The translations under genes and the position numbers were made by a program. The notes beneath the pieces are model-generated. The model was given only the letters and a program-made list of their open reading frames with translations, was not told where the DNA came from and searched no databases. Source: an uncultured Actinomycetes bacterium (GTDB lineage: Bacteria > Actinomycetota > Acidimicrobiia > Acidimicrobiales > Microtrichaceae). Taken from it: DNA of 34,335 nucleotides. This document shows positions 665 to 13,699 of the stretch, piece after piece; within the stretch, counting starts at the first letter, position 1; each line of letters opens with the position of its first letter. The DNA lies in NCBI GenBank assembly GCA_903925745.1, contig CAIYGQ010000025.1, positions 1 to 34,335 on the forward strand, given 5' to 3'.

Positions 665-1375
665 TCAGGTCGCACGGTCGACCTCCAGGAGTTCCAGGTC
701 CTCTCGGGTCACGATCCGTGCGGCGAGCGCGTACTCGACGAGACGGGTACGCCGGTTGGACGCCAGGGCCCCAGCCCCGCCGTGGAGTCCTCGGACCCCG
801 ACCTTGGTCAGTTTCTGGCACACGTTGTCCAGCTTGCGGTTGAACTTGGTGATGGTCCAGCCGAGTCGCCCGGCGGCCTCGGCCGACGCCGGGATCGACC
901 CGGCTCCGATGCCGTCGCCCAGCAGCAGTGGCTCGGCCAGCGCCAGGATCAGTCGGAGTTGGTCGGGGGTGAAGGCCATGGGCCCGATCGTGGTGTCCCC
1001 GTGCGGATCCGACTGGAGCGGACTCGACTCGAAGGTCGGCTGATCGAGTTCGAGGGCCAGTTCGTAGGTGGTGGGGCCGGCGGTGAACCTCACGACCGTC
1101 TCGGCGAAGACGACCGGGATCTGGCCGCCCGGTGCCAGCCACGACTGCATCGACCCGCCCGAGTCCGAAACGGTGGCGGTGAGCTGGGCACCCACGTTCC
1201 GCAGCCACCAGAGTCCGTCCCGGTGGTCGACGACCAGGAAGCGGCGGTGGAGGTACGGGTTGTCGTCCACGACGACATCGCCCTCCCTGCCGATCGTGAA
1301 CGACGACGACGGATCCACATCGTGCCGCTCTCCGCAGAAGTCCACGGTGAGCCGCGGGGTCCGGGCCGTCGCCAT
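665..1375 (-). CDS. FHA-domain protein with C-terminal winged-helix-like domain
   Basis: 236 residues. The ATG at 1375 overlaps the kinase stop as TGATG; a GTG two codons upstream (1381) is an alternative. Residues about 9-105 form an FHA-type phosphothreonine reader: the IGRE turn (28-31) and the PYLHRRF segment (40-46) match the GR and SxxH-like positions, although the usual Ser is replaced. Residues about 130-236 are helical, with conserved-looking text (LGWTITKFNRKLDNVCQKL, GVRGLHGG, RLVEYALAARIVTREDL) that reads like a winged-helix/HTH domain. It probably links phosphorylation by the adjacent kinase to a protein or DNA target. The FHA call is firm; the HTH role is inferred. Confidence 0.85.
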   Translation of the reverse strand: MATARTPRLTVDFCGERHDVDPSSSFTIGREGDVVVDDNPYLHRRFLVVDHRDGLWWLRNVGAQLTATVSDSGGSMQSWLAPGGQIPVVFAETVVRFTAGPTTYELALELDQPTFESSPLQSDPHGDTTIGPMAFTPDQLRLILALAEPLLLGDGIGAGSIPASAEAAGRLGWTITKFNRKLDNVCQKLTKVGVRGLHGGAGALASNRRTRLVEYALAARIVTREDLELLEVDRAT

Positions 1376-2955
1376 CAGCACAACCCCCGGGCCTTGACCG
1401 CCTCGCCGACGGGCTCTCCGGCGCGGACCGGCTGGACGAAGAACTCCGAGGGTTGGTCGGGTTGGTCGACCTCGAACTGCTGGAGTTCCGCGTCGGTCCC
1501 CGCGGGCTGCTTGCTCGACTGGTCGGTGATCTCGACGGTGTCCCCGGGGACGTGGTCATCGGTGATCACCCAGGTCACGAGACAGCGACCGTCCGTCCCC
1601 GTCGGCGCCACGGCGACGTCCCCGACCACCTGGATCGGCCCGGAGTCACGCAGCAACATGAAGCCGACGCCGGCGACGGCAGCGACGAGCGCCACCGCCA
1701 GCACGGCCACCAGGATCCAGGCGCGGCGGCGGCCGCCACCCGGCAGCGCAATCGTGGCCGGCTGCGCCGCGATGTACGTGCCCGCCGCCGGGTCGCCCGT
1801 GTCGTGGACGCCACCGACCCGTGGTTGGATCGGCGCGCTGCCGTCGCTGGCAGGTGCGGTCGGCACGTACGGGGTCTGGTGGATGATGCCGCTCGGACCA
1901 GCGCCGTTCGCGCCGGATGGTGCTCGCATCCCCGACGGAGGCCTGACGAAGGTTCGGCTGAAGGTGTGCTGGGCCCGGAGGTTGGTGGTGGACCCCGAGC
2001 CCTGCGCGTCGATCACCGTCGGCTGCTTGACCCGGGTGGCTCCGGCGTCAGGATCGATCGGCGTCCCCGGGTCGTCGGTCGGTCCGACGTCGCTCACCTC
2101 GAACTCCGTCATCGAGAACCGTTGCTCGACCTCGATGGCCTGGAGCTCCCGGGCGAACGCCGCAGCCGAGGCGGGACGGTGTGACGGATCCTTTGCCATG
2201 GCCAGGGCGAGGAGTCGTTGCAGCGAACCCGGCACGTCCGGGCGGTCAACCGCCGGTACCGGCAGTTGCTGGATCCGACCGATCAGGTCGATCGCCCGGT
2301 TCTGCCCGCCGACGACCTCGAACGGCGAGCGTCCGGCGAGCAGGGTGTGGAGCGTCGCGGCCAGCGAGTAGACGTCGGAGCGTTCGTCGCCGACCCCGTC
2401 CCCCACGACCACCTCGGGGGGCGACCACGGAATCGACATCCCCTCGGCCTCGTCCGCCCGGTGGTCCTTGGCGGCGGCGATGCCGAAGTCCGTCAGTCCG
2501 GGTCGGCCGTACTCGCTCGTCAGGATGTTCGCAGGCTTGATGTCGCGGTGGAGGATCCGGATCCGGTGGGCGGTCTCCACCGCCGAGGCGATCTGCACCC
2601 CGACGCGCAGCACGTCGGCCACCTGGAACCGTTCCGTCCGGGATCGCGTCGAGAAGTTCGGCCGCGGGTAGTACTCCATGACCATGTACGGGTACCCCTC
2701 GGGTGACACGTCCGCCCGGAGGATGCTCACGATGAACGGATGGTTGGAGACGCTCGCCATGGCGTTGGCCTCATCGGTGAACCGCCGTCGCTGTTCGTTG
2801 CCCACGGAGTCGCCGACGAGGAACTTGATGGCGACGCGCCGGCGAGGGAACTCCTGCTCGTACAGGAACACGTCCGCGAACCCGCCCGAGCCGAGCAGTT
2901 CGACGTGCTCGTAGCCGTCGAGGACCGGAGGTTCGATGGTCGCCCGGGTGCTCAC
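1375..2955 (-). CDS. PknB-like receptor Ser/Thr protein kinase
   Basis: 526 residues with a GTG start overlapping the upstream stop (GTGA). The kinase domain spans about 13-275: glycine loop GSGGFADVF (22-30), VAIK lysine K44, catalytic HRD with D138 followed by IKPAN, DFG at 156-158, and SPPE in the P+1 region. All catalytic residues are present, so it should be active. A Pro/Thr-rich linker of about 135 residues leads to one transmembrane helix (about 412-434) and an extracellular domain of about 90 residues with two Cys and no PASTA repeats. It probably senses an envelope signal and phosphorylates the FHA proteins encoded on either side. It lies between two FHA genes and is translationally coupled to both. 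Confidence 0.95.
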   Translation of the reverse strand: MSTRATIEPPVLDGYEHVELLGSGGFADVFLYEQEFPRRRVAIKFLVGDSVGNEQRRRFTDEANAMASVSNHPFIVSILRADVSPEGYPYMVMEYYPRPNFSTRSRTERFQVADVLRVGVQIASAVETAHRIRILHRDIKPANILTSEYGRPGLTDFGIAAAKDHRADEAEGMSIPWSPPEVVVGDGVGDERSDVYSLAATLHTLLAGRSPFEVVGGQNRAIDLIGRIQQLPVPAVDRPDVPGSLQRLLALAMAKDPSHRPASAAAFARELQAIEVEQRFSMTEFEVSDVGPTDDPGTPIDPDAGATRVKQPTVIDAQGSGSTTNLRAQHTFSRTFVRPPSGMRAPSGANGAGPSGIIHQTPYVPTAPASDGSAPIQPRVGGVHDTGDPAAGTYIAAQPATIALPGGGRRRAWILVAVLAVALVAAVAGVGFMLLRDSGPIQVVGDVAVAPTGTDGRCLVTWVITDDHVPGDTVEITDQSSKQPAGTDAELQQFEVDQPDQPSEFFVQPVRAGEPVGEAVKARGLC

Positions 2956-4598
2956 GTGCTGACCTCGTAGACGAACTCGACCTCGTCGGCCAGGTTGACC
3001 GAGCCACCGACCGGGAGTGGGAACGGCTCTCCGGCGCGCAGACGCTGCGGCTGGCGACCGGGGATGGTGATCACGGTCCCGTTCGTCGATCCCCGATCCA
3101 CGACGAGCACCTGCCAGCCTTCGACACGGACCTCCACGTGGGTGCGGGAGATGTCGTGGCGGGGGCTCGGCACCTCCACGAGCTCGACCGGGCCCGAATG
3201 GCCGCCAGCCGGTTTCGGGGACCGGCCGATGAGGATGGTCCCGGTGACCGGTACGTTGCGGCCGCTGGAGAAACGGAAGGTACCGAGCTCGATCTGGTCG
3301 ACGCGGAACGTCTCACCGTCGACCGGTCGGCCACACACGCGGCAGGCCGTCGCCTGGGGTGGATTGAGGTGGCCGCCCTGGCACTGGCGGGTGACGTGCT
3401 CGCCATCGGCGCTGGCGGTTGCGGGAGGGGGTGGGGGGGTGCCGGAAGGTGCGACCGGATCCGACTCCCGGAGACGACGGAGTTCCGACACCGTGATGGT
3501 CAGTCCGTCGTGGTCGATCGGATCCCGCTGGTGGCGCTCCGCGGGACCGGCTGGGACGTCCGCTCCGATCCCGGTCGGCGTGTCCGTGCGGACCGCAGCG
3601 CCCTCCACCGACTTCACGATGGTGGATCCGAAGAGGTGGTCGTAGCTCCCGTCGTCATCCGGGTCCGCCGGACCATCGGCCGGGGTGTGGACGTCGGTCA
3701 CCGGCGTTCCGGGTGGAGGCGGGGGAGAGGGCGGGGGAGCGAAGGGAGGGGGGCTGGGTGGCTCGAGGACCTGCACGTCGTCGTCCCCGGAGGCCGCGCC
3801 CGGTTCGTTCCCCGGATCCGTCGGCGGGACGAGGGTGTGTCCGTCGTCGGGGTCGCCACCGGGTTCCGAGCCCGGGTCGAAACCGGTCGGATCGGACCCC
3901 GGCGGGACGTCCGAGATCGGAGATGCGGGCGGCGGTGGTGGTGGGAACGCCGCAGGCCCTGGCTCCGGGAGCGAGGACGCCGCCGCGTCCACCTCCGACT
4001 GGTCAGCGCGGCTGTCCGACGGGTCGTCCGACGGCTCGACCGACGGCTCGACCGACGGCTCGTCCGGTGGCTGGTCCGCCCTCCCGGTCGGCGAACCGCT
4101 CGCCGGGGTCGCAGCATTCGGGGCCGGTGGACCGCAGGTGATCGATCCGGCTGCGACGACACCTCCGACTGTCCAGAATCCCTCCACTTCGCCCGATCGG
4201 CCCTCCGGCGGGAGGCGGAGCGTGACGGCCGTGGCGTCGGTGAGCACGTGCTCGGTCCAGGTCAGGACCCCGGCGCTGTCGACCAGGGCGGGAGCCTCGT
4301 CCGGGACGTCGATGACCTCGGCCACCATGCCACCACGGAGCAGCAGTCGGCAGGTGCCCGAGTCCCAGGCGACGACTCCGAGCGGCGGCAGCACGTCGAA
4401 TCCCTGTCGTCCGAGCTGCTCGAGGACCGTCCCCGGGGTGGCGCCGGCCTGCTGCGGGCCCGGGTACCGACCGAACCCCAGCTCGGCGAGGAGTTCGACG
4501 GTCGGGTGCGACCGGTCGGCGAGGACCAGTGCCGTCCAGTTGATGGTCACGACGGCGATACCTGCGCCGGGTGAGAACGAACCCTCAGGACGGGTCAT
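2952..4598 (-). CDS. Zinc-ribbon plus FHA-domain protein with long Pro-rich linker
   Basis: 548 residues; the ATG at 4598 overlaps the PP2C gene by 14 bp. The first ~155 residues form a globular domain I do not recognise. Residues about 155-400 are low-complexity Pro/Asp/Ser with PPPPP runs. A short zinc-ribbon-like knuckle (CQGGHLNPPQATACRVCG, about 406-423) precedes a clear C-terminal FHA domain (about 440-548) with IGRS, SRTH (484-487) and GSTNG (503-507), i.e. intact phosphothreonine-binding signatures. It is probably a cytoplasmic adaptor or effector bound after phosphorylation by the neighbouring kinases. The layout recalls actinobacterial FhaA/GarA-type substrates, but the zinc knuckle and N-terminal domain differ. 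Confidence 0.9.
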   Translation of the reverse strand: MTRPEGSFSPGAGIAVVTINWTALVLADRSHPTVELLAELGFGRYPGPQQAGATPGTVLEQLGRQGFDVLPPLGVVAWDSGTCRLLLRGGMVAEVIDVPDEAPALVDSAGVLTWTEHVLTDATAVTLRLPPEGRSGEVEGFWTVGGVVAAGSITCGPPAPNAATPASGSPTGRADQPPDEPSVEPSVEPSDDPSDSRADQSEVDAAASSLPEPGPAAFPPPPPPASPISDVPPGSDPTGFDPGSEPGGDPDDGHTLVPPTDPGNEPGAASGDDDVQVLEPPSPPPFAPPPSPPPPPGTPVTDVHTPADGPADPDDDGSYDHLFGSTIVKSVEGAAVRTDTPTGIGADVPAGPAERHQRDPIDHDGLTITVSELRRLRESDPVAPSGTPPPPPATASADGEHVTRQCQGGHLNPPQATACRVCGRPVDGETFRVDQIELGTFRFSSGRNVPVTGTILIGRSPKPAGGHSGPVELVEVPSPRHDISRTHVEVRVEGWQVLVVDRGSTNGTVITIPGRQPQRLRAGEPFPLPVGGSVNLADEVEFVYEVST

Positions 4599-5631
4599 CG
4601 TCGGAACCTCCTCGATCCTCCGTCGGCCCGCTGGCGAGTTCGGTCGGCATCGCCTCGATCAGGGTCGGTGCCGGATCGGTTCTCCCGTCCGCGTCGTTGT
4701 GTCCGCTCGACTCCTCGATCCGGAGCACGGCCGGGAGCTCGTCGATCAGCCGCGGTGGCGCTTCGTCTCGGGCCGGGGCGCCGGCCGGGACCTCGGCGGG
4801 CACGAATCGGATCATGGACGAATCGGTCTCGACCCCTTCGTGGACCCGGTTGCGGGTTTCGGTCGTGACGTCGATGGTCTCGCCGACAGCGGTGACCTGG
4901 AGGACGACGACGGTGACGTTGTCCCGCCCGCCGTGGTCGAGGGCGAGTTCGACGAGCCGGTCGGCCGTCTCGGCCGGGTCCCGTGACTCACCGAGCAGGG
5001 AGGCGATCCGGCCGTCATCGACCTCTCCGGTCAGCCCGTCGCTGCAGATGACGAACCACTCATCGCAGCGGATCGGACGGATCCAGTAGTCGGCGTCGAC
5101 GTCGGGTTCGGCTCCCAGTGCCCGGGTGATGACGTTGCGTTGGTGGTGGGTCCTCGCCTCGGACGGATCGAGCTGGCCGCTGTCGACCAGTTCCTGCACG
5201 TAGGAGTGGTCCTTGGAGACCTGCAGCAGCTCACCGGCGAACCAGCTGTAGATCCTCGAGTCCCCGACGTTGAAGGCCAGCCAGGCCGGGACGCCCGAGT
5301 AGTCAGCGATCGCCAGCCCGGCCACCGTGGTGCCCATGGTGTGGCCGCCCTCGCCGGCGGCGAAGAGATCCGAGTTCACCGATCGGATCTCGGCCGAGAG
5401 CAGGTCGATCGAGGCGGGCCGGTCCTCGGCGTGCTCGGCCAGCACGCCCAGTCGCGAGGTGGTCAGTCCGCTGGCCACCTCGCCAGCCTCGTGTCCTCCC
5501 ATCCCGTCGGCCACCATGAACAGCGGTGGCCGGGCGAGCACGGCGTCCTCGTTGAGCGACCGGACCCGCCCGACGTCGGTGCGCGCCGCCCAACGCACCG
5601 TCGTCGCCTCGATCACGGCCTGCTCCGTCAC
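4585..5631 (-). CDS. PP2C-family Ser/Thr protein phosphatase
   Basis: 348 residues from GTG 5631, chosen because GGAG lies 6 nt upstream and the PP2C fold begins about 14 residues later; in-frame ATGs at 5676 and 5688 are alternatives. PP2C signatures appear in order: TDVGRVRSLNEDAV, VADGMGGHEAGEVAS, GTTVAGL, NVGDSRIY, ITRALG, ICSDGLTGEV, GGRDNVTVVVL. The metal-binding aspartates are intact, so it should be an active Mn/Mg-dependent phosphatase. It resembles PstP but has no membrane segment; instead it has an acidic, Pro-rich tail of about 100 residues. It is the expected antagonist of the kinases in this run. Its 3' end overlaps the FHA gene by 14 bp. Confidence 0.95.
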   Translation of the reverse strand: MTEQAVIEATTVRWAARTDVGRVRSLNEDAVLARPPLFMVADGMGGHEAGEVASGLTTSRLGVLAEHAEDRPASIDLLSAEIRSVNSDLFAAGEGGHTMGTTVAGLAIADYSGVPAWLAFNVGDSRIYSWFAGELLQVSKDHSYVQELVDSGQLDPSEARTHHQRNVITRALGAEPDVDADYWIRPIRCDEWFVICSDGLTGEVDDGRIASLLGESRDPAETADRLVELALDHGGRDNVTVVVLQVTAVGETIDVTTETRNRVHEGVETDSSMIRFVPAEVPAGAPARDEAPPRLIDELPAVLRIEESSGHNDADGRTDPAPTLIEAMPTELASGPTEDRGGSDDDPS

Positions 5632-5666
5632 AGCTCGCTCCGCCTCCTCGCCGGCGCACCAAAGGG

Positions 5667-5699
5667 CCCGTCCCATGTCGAGTCCCATCGTGGGACGGG
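5667..5699 (-). other. Hairpin in the leader of the PP2C gene
   Basis: A perfect 9-bp inverted repeat (CCCGTCCCA at 5667-5675, TGGGACGGG at 5691-5699) with a 15-nt loop lies in the 124-bp gap between the two phosphatase genes. Both alternative upstream ATGs (5676, 5688) fall inside it, and GTG 5631 is about 36 nt beyond it. It could be an attenuator, an mRNA-processing site or a weak terminator separating upstream and downstream halves of the operon. No T-tract follows. Confidence 0.4.
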
Positions 5700-6982: not shown

Positions 6983-7851
6983 CTGAGTGTCCGTCCGACC
7001 GCCGTGCCGACATTCAGGAAGGTGACCACCGCCCGGAGGTCGGCGTTGAAGCCGAAGCCCCGGGCCCCCGGTGCGACCTCGAATCCCTGCGAACGGGCGG
7101 CATCCAGCATGAATCCTGGGAGTGGACTCGACATGTGGAAGAGCGCCTGTGCGTGCACGTTGGGGAGCGCTCCCGGGTCGTTGGGGAACAGCACGGGCCG
7201 GGCGATCACCTCGCTCAGGCCGAGGTTGAACACGAGCGCGGCGCCGTCGCTCGAGCGCAGGTTCCGCAGTCGCTCCGCCAGGCCTGCCGGGTCACCGTCG
7301 GTGGACTCGCCGTCGGTGATGTTGATGACGATCGGCGGGAACGACTCGGGATACGAGTCGATCCAGGACTTGGCGATCAGGCCGGCCCGATCGAATGCTG
7401 CCATCATCGGAGTGCCGCCCCCAGCCACGGGCTCGATCCAGATCGGCGTGGCCACCTCGCCCCTGCCGCTGCCGGTCTGCTTGCGCTCGACGCGGAGCGG
7501 ATGCTTCGCCAGGTCCGGCGTCCACACGATGTCGTGCTCGTCCAGCGGTGGGCCGAGCGCCGTCGAGACAATCGGGGTGCCCTGTCGATCGGTCTGGTAG
7601 CCGACAACCGCCACCGCGAAGTACGGGCGGGGACCCTCCTGGGGTGACTTCACGGATCGCAGCACGATCTCGTAGAGCAGGCCATTCAGCGTCTCGGCGA
7701 GTGCCACGTGCTTCGGACGTTGGGCGTCGCCGCCCAGCGGATCGCGCATGGAGTCGGACTGGTCGAGGAGGAAGATCAGGCAGGCCGGGTGCTCTCGGTC
7801 GACCCGACTGCTGTACTCGGCCGGCCGGACTCGTGTGTCGTCGTCACTCAC
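6979..7851 (-). CDS. von Willebrand factor A (MIDAS) protein, TerY/YegL-like
   Basis: 290 residues from GTG 7851, which has a strong GGAGGT ribosome site four bases upstream and overlaps the preceding gene by 8 bp. A vWA domain fills the protein: DQSDS at 30-34 is the DxSxS metal-ion site, GGGTPM supplies the MIDAS Thr, and ITDGESTDGD supplies the Asp, so metal coordination looks intact. It has no signal peptide or membrane segment, so it is probably cytoplasmic. Its place between a YegI-like kinase and a YegK-like PP2C matches the TerY-P/YegIKL arrangement. A scaffold or protein-complex switch is the likely role; the binding partner is unknown. Confidence 0.9.
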   Translation of the reverse strand: MSDDDTRVRPAEYSSRVDREHPACLIFLLDQSDSMRDPLGGDAQRPKHVALAETLNGLLYEIVLRSVKSPQEGPRPYFAVAVVGYQTDRQGTPIVSTALGPPLDEHDIVWTPDLAKHPLRVERKQTGSGRGEVATPIWIEPVAGGGTPMMAAFDRAGLIAKSWIDSYPESFPPIVINITDGESTDGDPAGLAERLRNLRSSDGAALVFNLGLSEVIARPVLFPNDPGALPNVHAQALFHMSSPLPGFMLDAARSQGFEVAPGARGFGFNADLRAVVTFLNVGTAVGRTLR

Positions 7852-8392
7852 CTTGACCTCCTCGGGTCTGACTGCCCGACCTGCCAGCGCCCGAGTCGAC
7901 CTGCTCGCCCGGCGCAGTGCTTGTCGGCGAAGTAGGGAACGGCATGTACCAACGCTGCTCCTGGCCGTCATCGGCCGAACCGGACCGACCGGCACCATCC
8001 GGATCGACTTCCCGTCTGTCCTCGGACTGCGTTCGGTAGCAGAAGGACACGAGGTCCCGTCCGAGCCTCGCAGTCGCAATGGAGCGTTCCGCCGGTGTCG
8101 TTCCCTGGCTCTTCGCGACCTGCTCCCACGCATCCTGGTAGGAATCAACGAGTTCCCCGTTGCTGAGCTGCTCGCACAGTCGTTCGGCCGGCGTCGACGC
8201 CATGGTCGTTGTCGTCGTCGTGATGGTGCTGGTCGTCGGCGGCACCGAGGTCGTCGTGCTGGACGTCGAGGTGGACGTGGGTGTGCCGCCGGACTCGGCG
8301 GCCAGGAGCCGCTCGGCACCGACCGCAGCGGCCAGACCGATGAGCCCGACGGCCAGTATCCGCACCGTGGCGATGGTGGTTCGGGAGCTCAT
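7844..8392 (-). CDS. Small secreted/membrane-anchored Thr-rich protein
   Basis: 182 residues. The ATG at 8392 lies one base after the dual-kinase stop and is preceded by GGAGG at ideal spacing. An N-terminal hydrophobic segment (about 10-30, VRILAVGLIGLAAAVGAERL) is a signal anchor or uncleaved signal peptide. A run of Thr/Ser (about 37-63, including TITTTTTT) follows, then a small domain with two Cys (AERLCEQLSNGE and LVSFCYRTQ) and a polar tail. I do not recognise the family. The Thr-rich stalk is typical of exported actinobacterial proteins. Tight coupling with the kinase and vWA genes makes it a candidate dedicated extracytoplasmic partner. Confidence 0.8.
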   Translation of the reverse strand: MSSRTTIATVRILAVGLIGLAAAVGAERLLAAESGGTPTSTSTSSTTTSVPPTTSTITTTTTTMASTPAERLCEQLSNGELVDSYQDAWEQVAKSQGTTPAERSIATARLGRDLVSFCYRTQSEDRREVDPDGAGRSGSADDGQEQRWYMPFPTSPTSTAPGEQVDSGAGRSGSQTRGGQGE

Positions 8393-8393
8393 C

Positions 8394-11300
8394 TCAACGC
8401 CTCCGGTAGGTGACCGACGGACCATCCGGCCGGCCCAGGTGGAAGGTGGTCTCGCCGAAGGGCAGAACCGCGCCGGTCGACAGCTGCTGTCCATCGAGCC
8501 ACGTCGGTCCGATGGGGGTCAGTTGGTCCACCTGGGGTCGACCCGGTACGAGGTCGATGCGAACGTGTGCATCGAGGACGCCGGGCCCCACCACCTGGAC
8601 GAGTCCGGTCGCATCGGCCCCGATGATGCCGTTGCGGCTCCCGACCGGGATCCATCGACCGGCCCGCCATCCGGAACCGGGGATGAGGCACCGTCGGCAG
8701 GCGACCACGTGCCCGAGGCCGAGCGAGGCGCCAATGAGGCCTCCGACCAGGAATCCCCCCAGCAATGCTGAGAGCCCAGGCAAGGAGACCCAGTTGCCTG
8801 CCGTGCCCGATAGCGCCACAGTGCTCTCGGCCAGGATTGCACCGGCGATCGCGCCACCGGTGAGCCCTGCGACCGACTGCAGCGCAGCGGACCGCCAGCT
8901 CATCCACTGCGCAGGGGCGAGGCCGACCAGCGCGCCGACGGTCGCAGCGCAGAGCGTGACGACGACGGTGTTGGGGTTGGCCGAGGCACCGGTGACATCG
9001 AGGCCTGCGAACCATCGACTGATGACCAAGAGGGCGCCAGCAATCAGCGGTCCGATGACGACGAGCGACTGGACGGCCCAGCGGACGGCGCCGGCGGGTC
9101 GCTGTGCCCGCTCGCCGATCCAGCCCATGCCGAGGCACAGGCAGACCGCCAGCGCGCCGACGAGGAAGGGGAAGGCCAGATTCCCGTCGTCGTTCGATGA
9201 GCCGGCAGCCAGTGCGACGACCCCGGCGACGATTCCGCTGGCGGCCCCGACGATCGTCCGGCTGACCAGGGGTCGGGTCAGGATCGATGCCGACGGCTCG
9301 TTTCCTGCCAGCGATCCGGAGCCACCCGTGGTTCCGTACAAGGCGGATATCGGGCTGGCCCATTCGGCCTCACCCGTAGCGGCCGATGTGCTCGATCCGG
9401 TCCAGTCGGCCGCCGCATCGACCACCGGGGTGACCGGGACGAATGGCGCCGCAGGGTCGGCGATCGGCTCGGCGTGGTTGGTCGCGGTCGGCGGCGGGGC
9501 GGCGAAGAGGGGCGTTGAGTCGATCAGGTCCCTGGCCGACCCGACCGGGGGGTCCGAGGAGGCGCAGCACTGCTCGAGGATCGAAGCCTGCCGCCGCACC
9601 CGGACGTCGGGACTCTGCAACAGGTCGAGCCACGCCGGTGTCCCGCCCGGGTGCCGCAGGTCGTCGTCACCGAGGACGAGGTTCTCGCCGACGTGGTGCC
9701 GCCACAGCGACGGGTCGGCGGCCAGGGCGATCAGCGTCGTGTGGATGAGGGCGCCTGAGAACGAGTCGAGGTCCGGACCCCACGTGTCGTGGTCCCGCCA
9801 AGGGTGCTGGAAGCTCGGGTGGCCGGTCTCGCGGCTGGGGTGGTCCGCCAGCGCCGGAACCCAGACCCCGTCCAGGTCGATCAGGCGGATCGTCAGGTCG
9901 TCGTCGACGAGGACGTTCCCGTGCTGCAGGTCGCCGTGCGCGATCTGGGCGGCCCGCAGTTCCTCGCACACCCTCAGCCACTGATCCGCCAGCTCGAGGA
10001 GTTCGGCGGGTCGCCGGAGCCGATCCTCGATGGCGACGTCGAGCGGCAGCCCGGGCACCCACGGCATGCTCACGGCCGGCCACAGGGTGCCGTCCGCCTC
10101 GACGGCCTCGTCCAACCAGACGGCGGGCACCAAGGCATCGCAGGGCTGTCGCTGCAGGTGCCGGGCGAGCGCCCGGTAGCGCAGCGCGCCCTCGGCCGGT
10201 GGCCGGGTGAAGCACCGCAGGGCGAGCGGGCCGGATGCCCTGGTGAGGTGGAACACGATGGCGCTCTGGCCGGCGGCCGACATGGGCATTCCGAGCAGGT
10301 CGCGATCCAGTTCGCTACCCGCCAGGTCGGCGTGTCGGAGCGAGACCGGGTCCTGGATGGCGGTCGCGTAGTCCGAGGAGGTCGGCCAGGAGCCCTCCGG
10401 GTACTCAACCTGCACGAACGACTCGTCGAGCTGGTCGTCGCCGGTCGACTCCTCGGATGCACCCGCGGGTGGTACGAAGGGCGGCGGGTTCGGAGCGGCC
10501 CCCGTGCTGCCAGCGCCGTGTTGCGCAGCGAACGCCTCGGTCACCCAGTCGATCGGACCTTGGTCGGCGACCCGGTCACCCTCCGGTCCCGGTTCGGGGG
10601 TCGAGCTCAATGCGGCGGTCACCCACTCGATGCCCCCGGCCGGGGCCACGTTTCCGGATGGGGGAATGACGACCGCGCCCGCACGATCCTGGGGCTCCCC
10701 CGGTGGGGCACAGACACGGAGGCGTTCCAGCACCTGGCTCATGGAGCCCGGCCGATCCGACGGGTCCTTGGCGAGCATGTCGACCACGAGTGCCTCGAAG
10801 TCGGACGGAATGTCTGCCCGGCCCGTCGGCGGGACGGGCCACGTGGCCACCCGATCACTCAGGCCCGCCACGCCGCCCTGGGCTGCGGTACCGAACGGTG
10901 CCCGTCCGGTCAGGGAGAAGTAGATGGTGGCACCGAGGGAGTAGACGTCGACCGTCGGCTCGCTCGAGACCTCGCCGAGGAAGCTCTCGGGAGGCGAGTA
11001 CGGGGGTGACAGCGAGTCACTCGTCTCGGTGGACGAGCGGAGATCGTCGATCACCGCGATGCCGAAGTCGGCCAGTGCGACGTCGCCGTTGGCCGAGATC
11101 AGGACGTTGCCGGGCTTGATGTCACGGTGGACGACCCGTCGTTCGTGGGCTCGGACCAGCGCTTCGGCCAGGACGAGGGCTGCGTCGTGGGCCTGGCCCG
11201 GGCTGAGGGGACCGTTCCGGCGGACGTGCTCGTCCAGTGACCCGCGTGCCATGTGCTCCATGACGATGCAGGGCCGGCCGTCCAGGGTGAATGCGCTGGT

Positions 11301-11522
11301 GTGGACGGGCGTGATCCCGCGGACTCCGGCCAGCTTGCCGACGACCCGGCACTCCCGGAGGAACCGGCGTCGGGTCGACTCGTCACTCGTGTCCAGGTTC
11401 AGGACCTTGATCGCGACCTTGCGGCCCAGGTCCACCTGCTCCGCCGCGTAGACGGTGCTGAATCCGCCGCGGCCGATCGTCTCCAGATTGTCGAATCCCT
11501 CGATGACCGGCGCAGCGCCCAC
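8394..11522 (-). CDS. Dual kinase-domain membrane protein with C-terminal FHA-like domain
   Basis: 1042 residues from GTG 11522, preceded by a GGGGG ribosome site. Domain order: (1) canonical Hanks kinase (about 9-270) with GRGGFSTVY, VAIK K39, HRD D134, DFG 152-154 and SPPE; (2) Pro-rich linker; (3) a second kinase-like domain (about 390-650) of YegI type with HGDLQHGNVLV (529-539) and IDLDG (548-552), followed by GHPSFQHPWR; the VAIK position appears to be R436 (LALRCF), so activity is uncertain; (4) six predicted transmembrane helices (about 755-942); (5) an FHA-like C-terminus (about 955-1042) with VGSRNG, GVLDAHVRI and PTWLDG. It heads the operon. The layout suggests self-recognition of phosphothreonine and membrane-tethered signalling. 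Confidence 0.9.
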   Translation of the reverse strand: MGAAPVIEGFDNLETIGRGGFSTVYAAEQVDLGRKVAIKVLNLDTSDESTRRRFLRECRVVGKLAGVRGITPVHTSAFTLDGRPCIVMEHMARGSLDEHVRRNGPLSPGQAHDAALVLAEALVRAHERRVVHRDIKPGNVLISANGDVALADFGIAVIDDLRSSTETSDSLSPPYSPPESFLGEVSSEPTVDVYSLGATIYFSLTGRAPFGTAAQGGVAGLSDRVATWPVPPTGRADIPSDFEALVVDMLAKDPSDRPGSMSQVLERLRVCAPPGEPQDRAGAVVIPPSGNVAPAGGIEWVTAALSSTPEPGPEGDRVADQGPIDWVTEAFAAQHGAGSTGAAPNPPPFVPPAGASEESTGDDQLDESFVQVEYPEGSWPTSSDYATAIQDPVSLRHADLAGSELDRDLLGMPMSAAGQSAIVFHLTRASGPLALRCFTRPPAEGALRYRALARHLQRQPCDALVPAVWLDEAVEADGTLWPAVSMPWVPGLPLDVAIEDRLRRPAELLELADQWLRVCEELRAAQIAHGDLQHGNVLVDDDLTIRLIDLDGVWVPALADHPSRETGHPSFQHPWRDHDTWGPDLDSFSGALIHTTLIALAADPSLWRHHVGENLVLGDDDLRHPGGTPAWLDLLQSPDVRVRRQASILEQCCASSDPPVGSARDLIDSTPLFAAPPPTATNHAEPIADPAAPFVPVTPVVDAAADWTGSSTSAATGEAEWASPISALYGTTGGSGSLAGNEPSASILTRPLVSRTIVGAASGIVAGVVALAAGSSNDDGNLAFPFLVGALAVCLCLGMGWIGERAQRPAGAVRWAVQSLVVIGPLIAGALLVISRWFAGLDVTGASANPNTVVVTLCAATVGALVGLAPAQWMSWRSAALQSVAGLTGGAIAGAILAESTVALSGTAGNWVSLPGLSALLGGFLVGGLIGASLGLGHVVACRRCLIPGSGWRAGRWIPVGSRNGIIGADATGLVQVVGPGVLDAHVRIDLVPGRPQVDQLTPIGPTWLDGQQLSTGAVLPFGETTFHLGRPDGPSVTYRRR

Positions 11523-11541
11523 GCATCCCCCTTCGATCCTC

Positions 11542-11571
11542 AGGTTAGGGATGACCCTCTGTCGGCGCCAA
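11542..11571 (-). promoter_or_regulatory. Candidate promoter of the signalling operon
   Basis: On the minus strand TTGGCG (11571-11566) is followed after 18 nt by TAACCT (11547-11542), 19 nt before GTG 11522. Only the TTG and TAnnnT core positions match housekeeping actinobacterial consensus, so this is a modest candidate. Confidence 0.35.
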
Positions 11572-11619
11572 GGGAGCGCGGTGGTCGCGCCCTGTTCCCA
11601 GACGGGTCGATCACTCCGC

Positions 11620-11667
11620 CGCGCAAGTGCGCGAGGTGGTCGTGGGCCATCGTGGTCGTGGGCCATC
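11620..11667. promoter_or_regulatory. Palindrome and 16-bp tandem repeat in the divergent control region
   Basis: The 304-bp gap between the divergent dual-kinase and zinc-ribbon genes holds a perfect palindrome CGCGCA-AG-TGCGCG (11620-11633). Three bases later comes a perfect tandem duplication of the 16-mer GTGGTCGTGGGCCATC (11636-11651, 11652-11667). Either could be a regulator site shared by the two transcription units. The rest of the gap (about 11668-11826) shows no recognisable signal to me. Confidence 0.45.
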
Positions 11668-11826
11668 GCCCCGGTCGTCGGCGGGCCAGGACTCGGGAGG
11701 ACCGGACGTTGTCGACCGGCGGCCCGGCGTGTCAGTATCCGGGCGACGCGGAGGGAGCGGAGTGGGCACTGGAGGCATCGGTCCTGCGGGCTGGGTAGTC
11801 GGGGTGCTCGGCGTGGGGTGGTCGAG

Positions 11827-12759
11827 GTGAGGCGCTGTCCAGCGTGTGACCGGCCCGTGACCGGGAGGTTCTGCCCCGGATGCGGCGCCGAGCCGGTCGA
11901 CACCACCCCTGCGTCGTCTGGTTCCCCCGGCGCCGGATCGGCCCAGGGGTCGGCGGCCACCGTGCCCGTGGCCGCACCGGTGGCGCCGCCACCTGCCGCC
12001 GGAGTCGTGCAGCCCGGTCGGGTCGTTCCGCCGGAGCCGACGACGGGCTACCAGACGGCCCCAACTCCACCGCCGGATGGCACGACCGGGAACAGGTCGA
12101 CGGCGGTCGCCGCCCTGATCGGAGGGCTCAGTGTGGCGGTGGTCGCGGCGCTGATCGCCATCGTCGCCCTGCTGGTCGCCCGAGGCGAGGACGAGGGCGA
12201 GGCCACGACGCGATCCGACCGGTCCGGAACGGACGTGCCGTCGGCGGGAACCTCGCCGACCTCGCCCGCACCGAGCGCGCCGACGACCTCGACCGTGGTG
12301 AACCTTCCGCCTCCGTCGGCGGCCCCGACGACGATCCCCCCGGTGCTGATCGGGGCACAGCAGTACCTGGAGGTGAGCGCGCAGGGCCGTGAGGCCGTCC
12401 AGCAGGGTGTGGCCGCCTGCTACGACGCCGACCCCTCGAGGGCGCTCAGCGGGCTCCAGATCGGAAAGGTCAATCGTCAGGAAATCCTGAACGGCCTGTC
12501 CGGAGTGAACATTCCGGGCTTCCAGTCGCTCTTCGTGGACATGCAACGGGCCATGGAACTCTCGATCGAGGCTGATGACCTGTACCAGGAGTGGGTGCGG
12601 AGCACCGGGTGTTCCTTCGGGCTGGAGTCCAACTTCTACAAGCAGCAGGCCGACGCCACGTCGGGTGAGGCGACGGCGGCGAAGCGGCGCTTCGTCGACG
12701 CGTGGAACCCGGTGGCCCGGCAGTACGGTCTGCGTCAGTTCAGTGATGAGGACATCTGA
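11827..12759 (+). CDS. Zinc-ribbon membrane protein with extracytoplasmic domain
   Basis: 310 residues. GTG 11827 places the zinc ribbon at the very N-terminus (MRRCPACDRPVTGRFCPGCG, two CPxC knuckles); GTG 11818 is an alternative. A Pro-rich cytoplasmic linker runs to one transmembrane helix (about 99-122, ALIGGLSVAVVAALIAIVALLVA), followed by a Thr/Pro stalk and a helical extracytoplasmic domain of about 135 residues with two Cys. The double-zinc-ribbon plus single-TM plan occurs in many actinobacterial envelope proteins, but I cannot name the family. It is divergent from the kinase operon and overlaps the amidase gene by 14 bp, so the two are probably cotranscribed. It may be an envelope partner or target of the kinases (inference). 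Confidence 0.85.
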   Translation: MRRCPACDRPVTGRFCPGCGAEPVDTTPASSGSPGAGSAQGSAATVPVAAPVAPPPAAGVVQPGRVVPPEPTTGYQTAPTPPPDGTTGNRSTAVAALIGGLSVAVVAALIAIVALLVARGEDEGEATTRSDRSGTDVPSAGTSPTSPAPSAPTTSTVVNLPPPSAAPTTIPPVLIGAQQYLEVSAQGREAVQQGVAACYDADPSRALSGLQIGKVNRQEILNGLSGVNIPGFQSLFVDMQRAMELSIEADDLYQEWVRSTGCSFGLESNFYKQQADATSGEATAAKRRFVDAWNPVARQYGLRQFSDEDI

Positions 12760-13699
12760 GCGGGTGCGGTGCCGGATTCGTCGGACGGCGCTGCTCCTCG
12801 GCATCCCGGCCGTGATCGCTGCATCCACCACCGGGTGCGGATCCGGCCCGGACAGCGCGACTCCGACGGCGGTGCTCACCGTCCCGGCCACGGAGCCCTC
12901 CACCTCGACGACCGTGCCGACCACCCTGCCGGCATCGACCAGCACGGTGCCGGTCGTGACGCTTCCGCCGATCGGATCGGCCGGCGTGTCCGTCCCGTCG
13001 ACCCCCAGCACCACCACCGACCAGGCGGTAGGCGGAGGATCACTCGATGGGCGGGTGGTGGTGATCGACCCCGGGCACAACGGTGGGAACGGGGGCGCCA
13101 CGTCGGAGATCAACCGTCAGGTGGAGGCCGGGGGGTTCCGGAAGGCCTGTGACACCACCGGGACCTCCACGAACGGCGGCTACAGCGAGTCGGCGTTCAA
13201 TTGGGATGTCTCGAACCGGCTGGCCGAGTTGCTGCGCGCCGGCGGAGCGAAGGTCATCCTGACCCGGGATTCGGACCGGGGCGTGGGACCGTGCATCGAC
13301 CGACGGGCCGGGATCGGCAATCTGGCCGGGGCCGACGTCGCCGTGTCGGTGCACGCCGACGGGTCGGACGCCGGCAACCGGGGCTTCCACATCCTGGTTC
13401 CCGGCGCGCTCCCGGGATACACCGACGACATCGCCGGCCCATCCCGCGACTACGCGCGGATCCTGCGGGAGGAGTTGCCCGCTGCCGGCATGCCGCCGTC
13501 GAACTACATCGGCAGCGATGGGATCATGCTCCGCACCGACCTGGGGGGCCTGAACCTCTCGGACGTCCCGAAGGTGTTCGTGGAGAGCGGAAACATGCGC
13601 GACCCCACCGACGCCGCCCTGCTCACCAGCCCCGAGTTCCGGCAGCGCTGGGCCGAGCGCATCGCTGCAGCGACGACGAGGTTCCTGCAGCAGCGGTGA
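12746..13699 (+). CDS. Exported N-acetylmuramoyl-L-alanine amidase (Amidase_3)
   Basis: 317 residues from ATG 12746, overlapping the previous gene; GTG 12764 is an alternative. A Sec signal with a lipoprotein-like Cys (LLLGIPAVIAASTTGC) is followed by a Thr/Pro-rich spacer and an Amidase_3 domain (about 98-317). Zn-ligand motifs are visible: VIDPGHNG (His), a Glu in TSEINRQVE, SVHADG (His), and the catalytic-type Glu in VFVESGNMRD. It should cleave the lactyl-Ala bond of peptidoglycan at the cell surface. Coupling to a zinc-ribbon membrane protein, divergent from a kinase/FHA operon, suggests cell-wall remodelling under phospho-control, though that link is inferred. Confidence 0.93.
   Translation: MRTSERVRCRIRRTALLLGIPAVIAASTTGCGSGPDSATPTAVLTVPATEPSTSTTVPTTLPASTSTVPVVTLPPIGSAGVSVPSTPSTTTDQAVGGGSLDGRVVVIDPGHNGGNGGATSEINRQVEAGGFRKACDTTGTSTNGGYSESAFNWDVSNRLAELLRAGGAKVILTRDSDRGVGPCIDRRAGIGNLAGADVAVSVHADGSDAGNRGFHILVPGALPGYTDDIAGPSRDYARILREELPAAGMPPSNYIGSDGIMLRTDLGGLNLSDVPKVFVESGNMRDPTDAALLTSPEFRQRWAERIAAATTRFLQQR

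Follow-up and report, generated by a model that had tools for sequence, protein, structure and literature searches.

A fused two-kinase membrane protein at the head of a TerY-P-like operon in an uncultured Microtrichaceae bacterium

The 34,335-nucleotide stretch of DNA analysed here (the window), from an uncultured member of the Microtrichaceae, contains on its minus strand a reading frame, open throughout, that runs from 11522 to 8394, stop included, and encodes a protein of 1042 residues, which we call the hub. A first-pass annotation saw in it two kinase domains, six membrane helices and an FHA-like end, and the locus thus raises the question of what kind of protein this is and what such a combination may be used for. 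The start codon is GTG, with a Shine-Dalgarno-like sequence (GAAGGGGG) 5' of it, and the start position is shared with an orthologue, L020. The parts follow each other in the order Hanks kinase, second kinase-fold domain, six helices and FHA-fold end:

8394..11522 (-), hub, fused two-kinase membrane protein of 1042 residues, GTG start, stop included; orthologue of equal architecture at L020 948-4256
10728..11492 (-), domain 1, residues 11-265, PknB-like Hanks kinase (Pfam Pkinase, E 1.1e-46; M. tuberculosis PknB, 2e-32)
9492..10403 (-), domain 2, residues 374-677, TerY-P (STK_OB-type) atypical kinase (PADLOC STK_OB, AlphaFold2, fold match)
10215..10217 (-), Arg436, at the beta-3 (VAIK-lysine) position of domain 2 (Arg in 69/89, Lys in 20/89 of the family)
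9915..9938 (-), catalytic loop of domain 2, HGDLQHGN at residues 529-536 (sequence and family alignment)
9867..9881 (-), metal-binding motif of domain 2, IDLDG at residues 548-552 (Asp549 and Asp551 invariant in 89)
8694..9272 (-), six membrane helices predicted at residues 751-943 (hydropathy; AlphaFold2, moderate pLDDT)
8397..8681 (-), FHA-fold domain at the C-terminus, residues 948-1042, lacking the phosphothreonine-site residues

An extension of the reading frame upstream to 11960 was dropped, as that sequence is not coding-like and the plus strand encodes a zinc-ribbon protein at this place. The divergent gene in question (11455-12759, plus strand, coding from about 11820) specifies a single hydrophobic segment besides the zinc ribbon (CPACDRPVTGRFCPGCG), with no Pfam family above cut-off, and the frame at 12575-13699 (plus strand), whose true start lies inside the ORF, resembles by eye an N-acetylmuramoyl-L-alanine amidase.

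Domain 1 is an ordinary member of the actinobacterial PknB-type kinases, its best solved relative being M. tuberculosis PknB (chain 1mru), and the catalytic residues previously listed for it are all present (Lys39 of VAIK, Asp134 of HRD and DFG at residues 152-154). It differs from those kinases in that the hub has no PASTA domains and domain 1 is joined to a second kinase. Domain 2 required more attention. The kinase-like nature suspected for residues 390-650 was borne out by an AlphaFold2 model of residues 374-677, built with 74 homologues (mean pLDDT 94.5), which has a kinase fold and for which all Foldseek and VIA-align matches are kinases (top Z 16.3, rmsd 3.4, 237 residues). The domain scores 36.4 bits against Pfam APH (cut-off 23.2), and hub residues 379-683 match PADLOC STK_OB, the TerY-P kinase, with E 2.2e-46. 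Only positions 3-310 of the 562 in this profile align to the hub, which has no OB-fold; as the three relatives checked (L022, L024 and L055) also match just to position 291, this end of the kinase varies. The hub ends in six helices and an FHA fold and not in a zinc ribbon or OB-fold, so we class it as a TerY-P variant. The domain had been called YegI-type; the motifs behind that name (HGDLQHGN and IDLDG) are there, but the label is imprecise given the PADLOC assignment. E. coli YegI aligns weakly with domain 2 (hhalign probability 49%) and has no PADLOC match, and a Pfam search found no helix-hairpin-helix in the hub. Judged from these comparisons, domain 2 and E. coli YegI are not closely related.

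It is the operon, overlooked in the first-pass annotation, that defines what the hub protein is. The hub heads a set of eight minus-strand genes, most of which overlap or adjoin and have Shine-Dalgarno-like sites; the other seven are:

7844..8392 (-), small protein, Thr-rich in one stretch and with a single hydrophobic segment, starting 1 nt after the hub stop; weakly similar counterpart at the same place in L020
6979..7851 (-), TerY-like vWA protein (PADLOC TerY, E 7e-63), 70% identical in L020
5756..6982 (-), triad PP2C phosphatase with an N-terminal hydrophobic segment (PADLOC PP2C, E 1.6e-30; Pfam PP2C_2), 4-nt overlap with the vWA gene
4585..5688 (-), second PP2C, Stp1/PrpC-like, start codon uncertain (NCBIfam Stp1, 210.3 bits, just below the 230 cut-off)
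2952..4598 (-), zinc-ribbon-like protein with a canonical FHA domain (Pfam FHA, 26.8 bits, cut-off 20.7)
1375..2955 (-), second Hanks kinase with one hydrophobic segment (Pfam Pkinase, E 1.9e-36), 4-nt overlap with the FHA gene
665..1381 (-), protein with a degenerate FHA domain and, at its end, a possible helix-turn-helix; contigs C89 and C337 carry homologues

The vWA protein has an intact MIDAS (DQSDS, GGTPM and ITDG), and the motifs of both PP2C phosphatases are intact as well. The FHA domain of the 2952-4598 protein carries the canonical residues (IGR, ISRTH and GSTNGT), by which it is the likely phosphothreonine reader of the operon. In the 665-1381 protein the helix-turn-helix was seen by eye and had no match in a Pfam search, and the comparison with solved structures gave only chance-like matches. 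Elsewhere in the same genome, Hanks kinases at L109 (3534-6441, contig C89) and L110 (7659-11192, contig C337) each lie beside a homologue of this protein, which suggests a repeated pairing of Hanks kinase and degenerate-FHA/possible-HTH regulator. A scan for promoters and terminators found none.

All three proteins of the TerY-P triad, including the PADLOC anti-phage set STK_OB/PP2C/TerY, are thus matched within one operon. TerY-P triads have been portrayed as switches that depend on phosphorylation and are connected with tellurite resistance and DNA-processing systems, with kinase architectures that include a C-terminal zinc ribbon or OB-fold (PMC11090510). According to PMC7699616 and PMC11090510, Gao et al. 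2020 found TerY-P with an OB-fold kinase to protect against T7-like phages. The hub kinase departs from these in its N-terminal PknB-like kinase and in its C-terminal six helices and FHA fold; its operon adds extra kinase, phosphatase and FHA genes, and the gene order is kinase-vWA-PP2C instead of the usual vWA-PP2C-kinase. The partnership itself is common around the domain-2 family. Among 84,980 species genomes, a scan recovered at least 545 homologues, the best 80 of which, with the finds in the order and family of the window, make up 89 loci (L020 and L029 being one contig), a vWA gene lying beside the domain-2 gene in 78 of them and a PP2C_2 gene likewise in 78. The L029 record, CAMDLX010000137.1 (5912 bp), has the gene coordinates and domain hits of L020 (contig C137, genome G207); it is titled as a Bifidobacterium breve MAG, while G207 is placed in the window's own family, and the title looks mislabelled. 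A more distant likeness is seen in E. coli YegI, PphC (YegK) and YegL, also a kinase, PP2C and vWA partnership with a membrane kinase, in which GD..N and DxD align with those of domain 2; YegI, however, keeps a lysine (VAKIY), ends in a helix-hairpin-helix, and has neither a second kinase nor an FHA domain.

Could the joining of two kinases be an assembly or frameshift artefact? The draft genome is fragmented (338 contigs) and one relative, L035, has the genes apart, but the frame is open along the whole hub and the same architecture was recovered in a separate genome. L020, on a 5.9-kb contig from the window's family, has an equal part order with 50% identity over residues 1-669, followed downstream by the vWA gene, with the remaining operon off the contig. 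This diverged orthologue indicates that the fusion is real; an artefact would require the same error in both assemblies and has a negligible probability. L035, an Acidimicrobiia contig, points to how the hub arose: a separate Hanks kinase gene (1462-2547) lies directly before a gene for domain 2, six helices and FHA fold, then come vWA and PP2C, an arrangement that identifies the hub as a gene fusion. Since, in addition, two further genomes of the class encode the six-helix/FHA module alone, the hub looks to be built from three modules. The stand-alone proteins at L141 (4758-5903) and L142 (293-1906), with six helices and a degenerate FHA domain, are relatives of the hub C-terminal module. The parts of the hub are known already, and this fusion is rare: it is known from two genomes, both fragmented, and no further case was found among the best 80 of at least 545 homologues or in samples of the order, class and phylum. 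Plasmid records gave two weak cyanobacterial matches, annotated 'hypothetical protein', and a literature search, whose scope did not include the original Anantharaman 2012 and Gao 2020 papers, returned no account of this fusion.

The arginine previously noticed at the likely VAIK lysine of domain 2 does align with the beta-3 lysine position (Arg436), and it had led to the proposal that the domain is a pseudokinase, acting as an allosteric regulator of domain 1. In well-studied kinases, replacement of this lysine by arginine usually abolishes activity, and across the domain-2 family alignment we saw no conserved glutamate in the helix-C region, both of which would agree with that proposal. Nevertheless, arginine is the commoner state in the alignment of homologues, in which the window protein is counted and the duplicate contig omitted, and arginine and lysine have interchanged at least eight times on a 74-sequence tree, unlike one-way decay. 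The catalytic Asp, the catalytic Asn and both Asp residues of DxDG are invariant across the 89 homologues. The scan was seeded with HGDLQ[HN]GN and L[VI]DLDGVW, so that the conservation seen within these motifs is in part a product of ascertainment and some bias in the Arg/Lys ratio is possible, but Gly418, Glu565 and Asp586, which lie outside the seeds, are nearly or fully invariant too. Moreover, most homologues are the sole kinase seen in their triad. A lysine of the VKM strand (column 485) was considered as a stand-in for the beta-3 lysine and rejected, as it occurs in Lys- and Arg-type members alike and is a serine in the hub; no other lysine that compensates for Arg436 was found in domain 2. 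With arginine common at beta-3, no compensating lysine and no helix-C glutamate, the domain-2 family is, by its alignment, atypical as a whole, and Arg436 is in this comparison no sign of decay in the hub. A regulatory role of domain 2 is possible, but Arg436 gives no indication of one, and we regard a true pseudokinase as rather improbable. For E. coli YegI, PMC13232886 describes autophosphorylation on serine and dephosphorylation by PphC; this kinase may serve, by analogy, as a precedent for an active atypical kinase in a distantly similar triad. It is tempting to go further and propose that TerY-P kinases are catalytically active with a natural beta-3 arginine that switches repeatedly with lysine, and that the hub is a two-step relay of Hanks and TerY-P kinase at the membrane under a vWA adaptor; we put this forward as a speculative reading.

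The C-terminal part of the hub had been taken to make it a membrane-tethered, self-organising protein. Tethering stands, by prediction: there are six hydrophobic segments, as first noted, between residues 751 and 943, and AlphaFold2 models six helices there, albeit with moderate confidence (pLDDT about 50-85). The FHA-like character assigned to residues 955-1042 is also supported, since the model of the C-terminus superposes on GarA (6i2r_B) with a VIA Z of 11.4 over 86 residues (rmsd 2.2), with Z values of about 11 for GarA/OdhI and of 10.3 for PscD; a profile match to OdhI has E 1.7e-4. As a caveat, the alignment used for this region contained canonical FHA rows, which helps the model towards such a fold. 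If this domain bound phosphothreonines of its own or neighbouring copies, the hub would cluster on the membrane, and a chain that holds both an FHA fold and a kinase invites that reading. However, the hub end reads IGA, VLDAH and IGPTWLDG, lacking the Arg of GR, the Ser of SxxH and the Asn of STNG, whereas canonical FHA domains of the same class keep IGR, S..H and GSTNGT. The same contacts are missing in four relatives with six helices and an FHA fold (L020, LGC/IHSEH/HAPILVNG; L035, IGS/VLGEH; L141, VGS/VALQH; L142, VGA/VTRRH), and this shared absence makes phosphothreonine reading by the hub unlikely. The modules of L020, L035 and L141 score above the Pfam threshold for FHA, and those of L020 and L141 also above that for Yop-YscD_cpl, the FHA-like cytoplasmic domain of YscD; the hub C-terminus has no Pfam match. 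In the YscD-type FHA fold phosphothreonine is known to be dispensable. The hub resembles YscD/PscD of type III secretion in having an FHA fold that adjoins membrane helices, but in the hub this fold follows six helices at the C-terminus of a chain that includes kinases, and no secretion genes were found among the neighbours examined. The idea of writer and reader in one chain is therefore not upheld, the intact FHA domain being that of the separate protein at 2952-4598; self-binding or clustering on phosphorylated neighbours found no support either, and we consider it very improbable.

We hypothesize, with a probability of about 0.6, that the hub represents the TerY-P phosphorylation switch in a two-kinase form anchored in the membrane, is used for signalling and arose by fusion of Hanks and TerY-P kinase genes. 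A PknB-like Hanks kinase gene would have joined a TerY-P kinase gene that already bore the six-helix segment and the FHA-fold end. Both kinase domains would be cytoplasmic and held together at the membrane, with the Hanks domain as main writer; the TerY-P kinase domain may phosphorylate or gate neighbours, the TerY-like vWA protein acting as the metal-dependent partner that handles it. The two PP2C phosphatases would reset the marks and the separate zinc-ribbon/FHA protein (2952-4598) would read phosphothreonines, while the second kinase and the degenerate-FHA/possible-HTH protein may relay the signal, perhaps to transcription. The FHA-fold end of the hub is probably a phosphate-independent docking module, as in YscD/PscD. 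The domains, their folds and residues, the operon, the orthologue and the split relative are observed; in this proposal we infer the enzymatic activity of each domain, as well as interactions, signal and output.

In PADLOC the triad is listed as a defence system, and the word signalling rests, for that reason, on the content of the operon and on its neighbours. That the operon is an anti-phage system, like the TerY-P modules with an OB-fold kinase, is suggested by the matches of all three triad proteins to PADLOC models and by a patchy distribution (2/33 genomes of the family and 9/198 of the order, own genome included). On the other hand, no effector or nuclease was recognised in the operon, the OB-fold is absent, with only positions 3-310 of the STK_OB profile matched, and the neighbours tested outside the operon belong mostly to housekeeping or transport and not to defence (Sua5, UbiA, an ABC sugar transporter and MetRS are among them). 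It is these neighbours that lead us to treat defence as the rival and not as the first choice, and we judge it unlikely.

The swapping of lysine and arginine in the domain-2 family makes it possible to test cleanly whether a natural kinase family can do without its beta-3 lysine, and both this position and the FHA-fold end caution that a single motif is too little for calling a pseudokinase or a reader domain. Fusions reveal cooperating proteins, and the hub links the TerY-P switch directly with a kinase of the PknB type; it suggests that TerY-P modules can act in membrane signalling, beyond defence or tellurite response.
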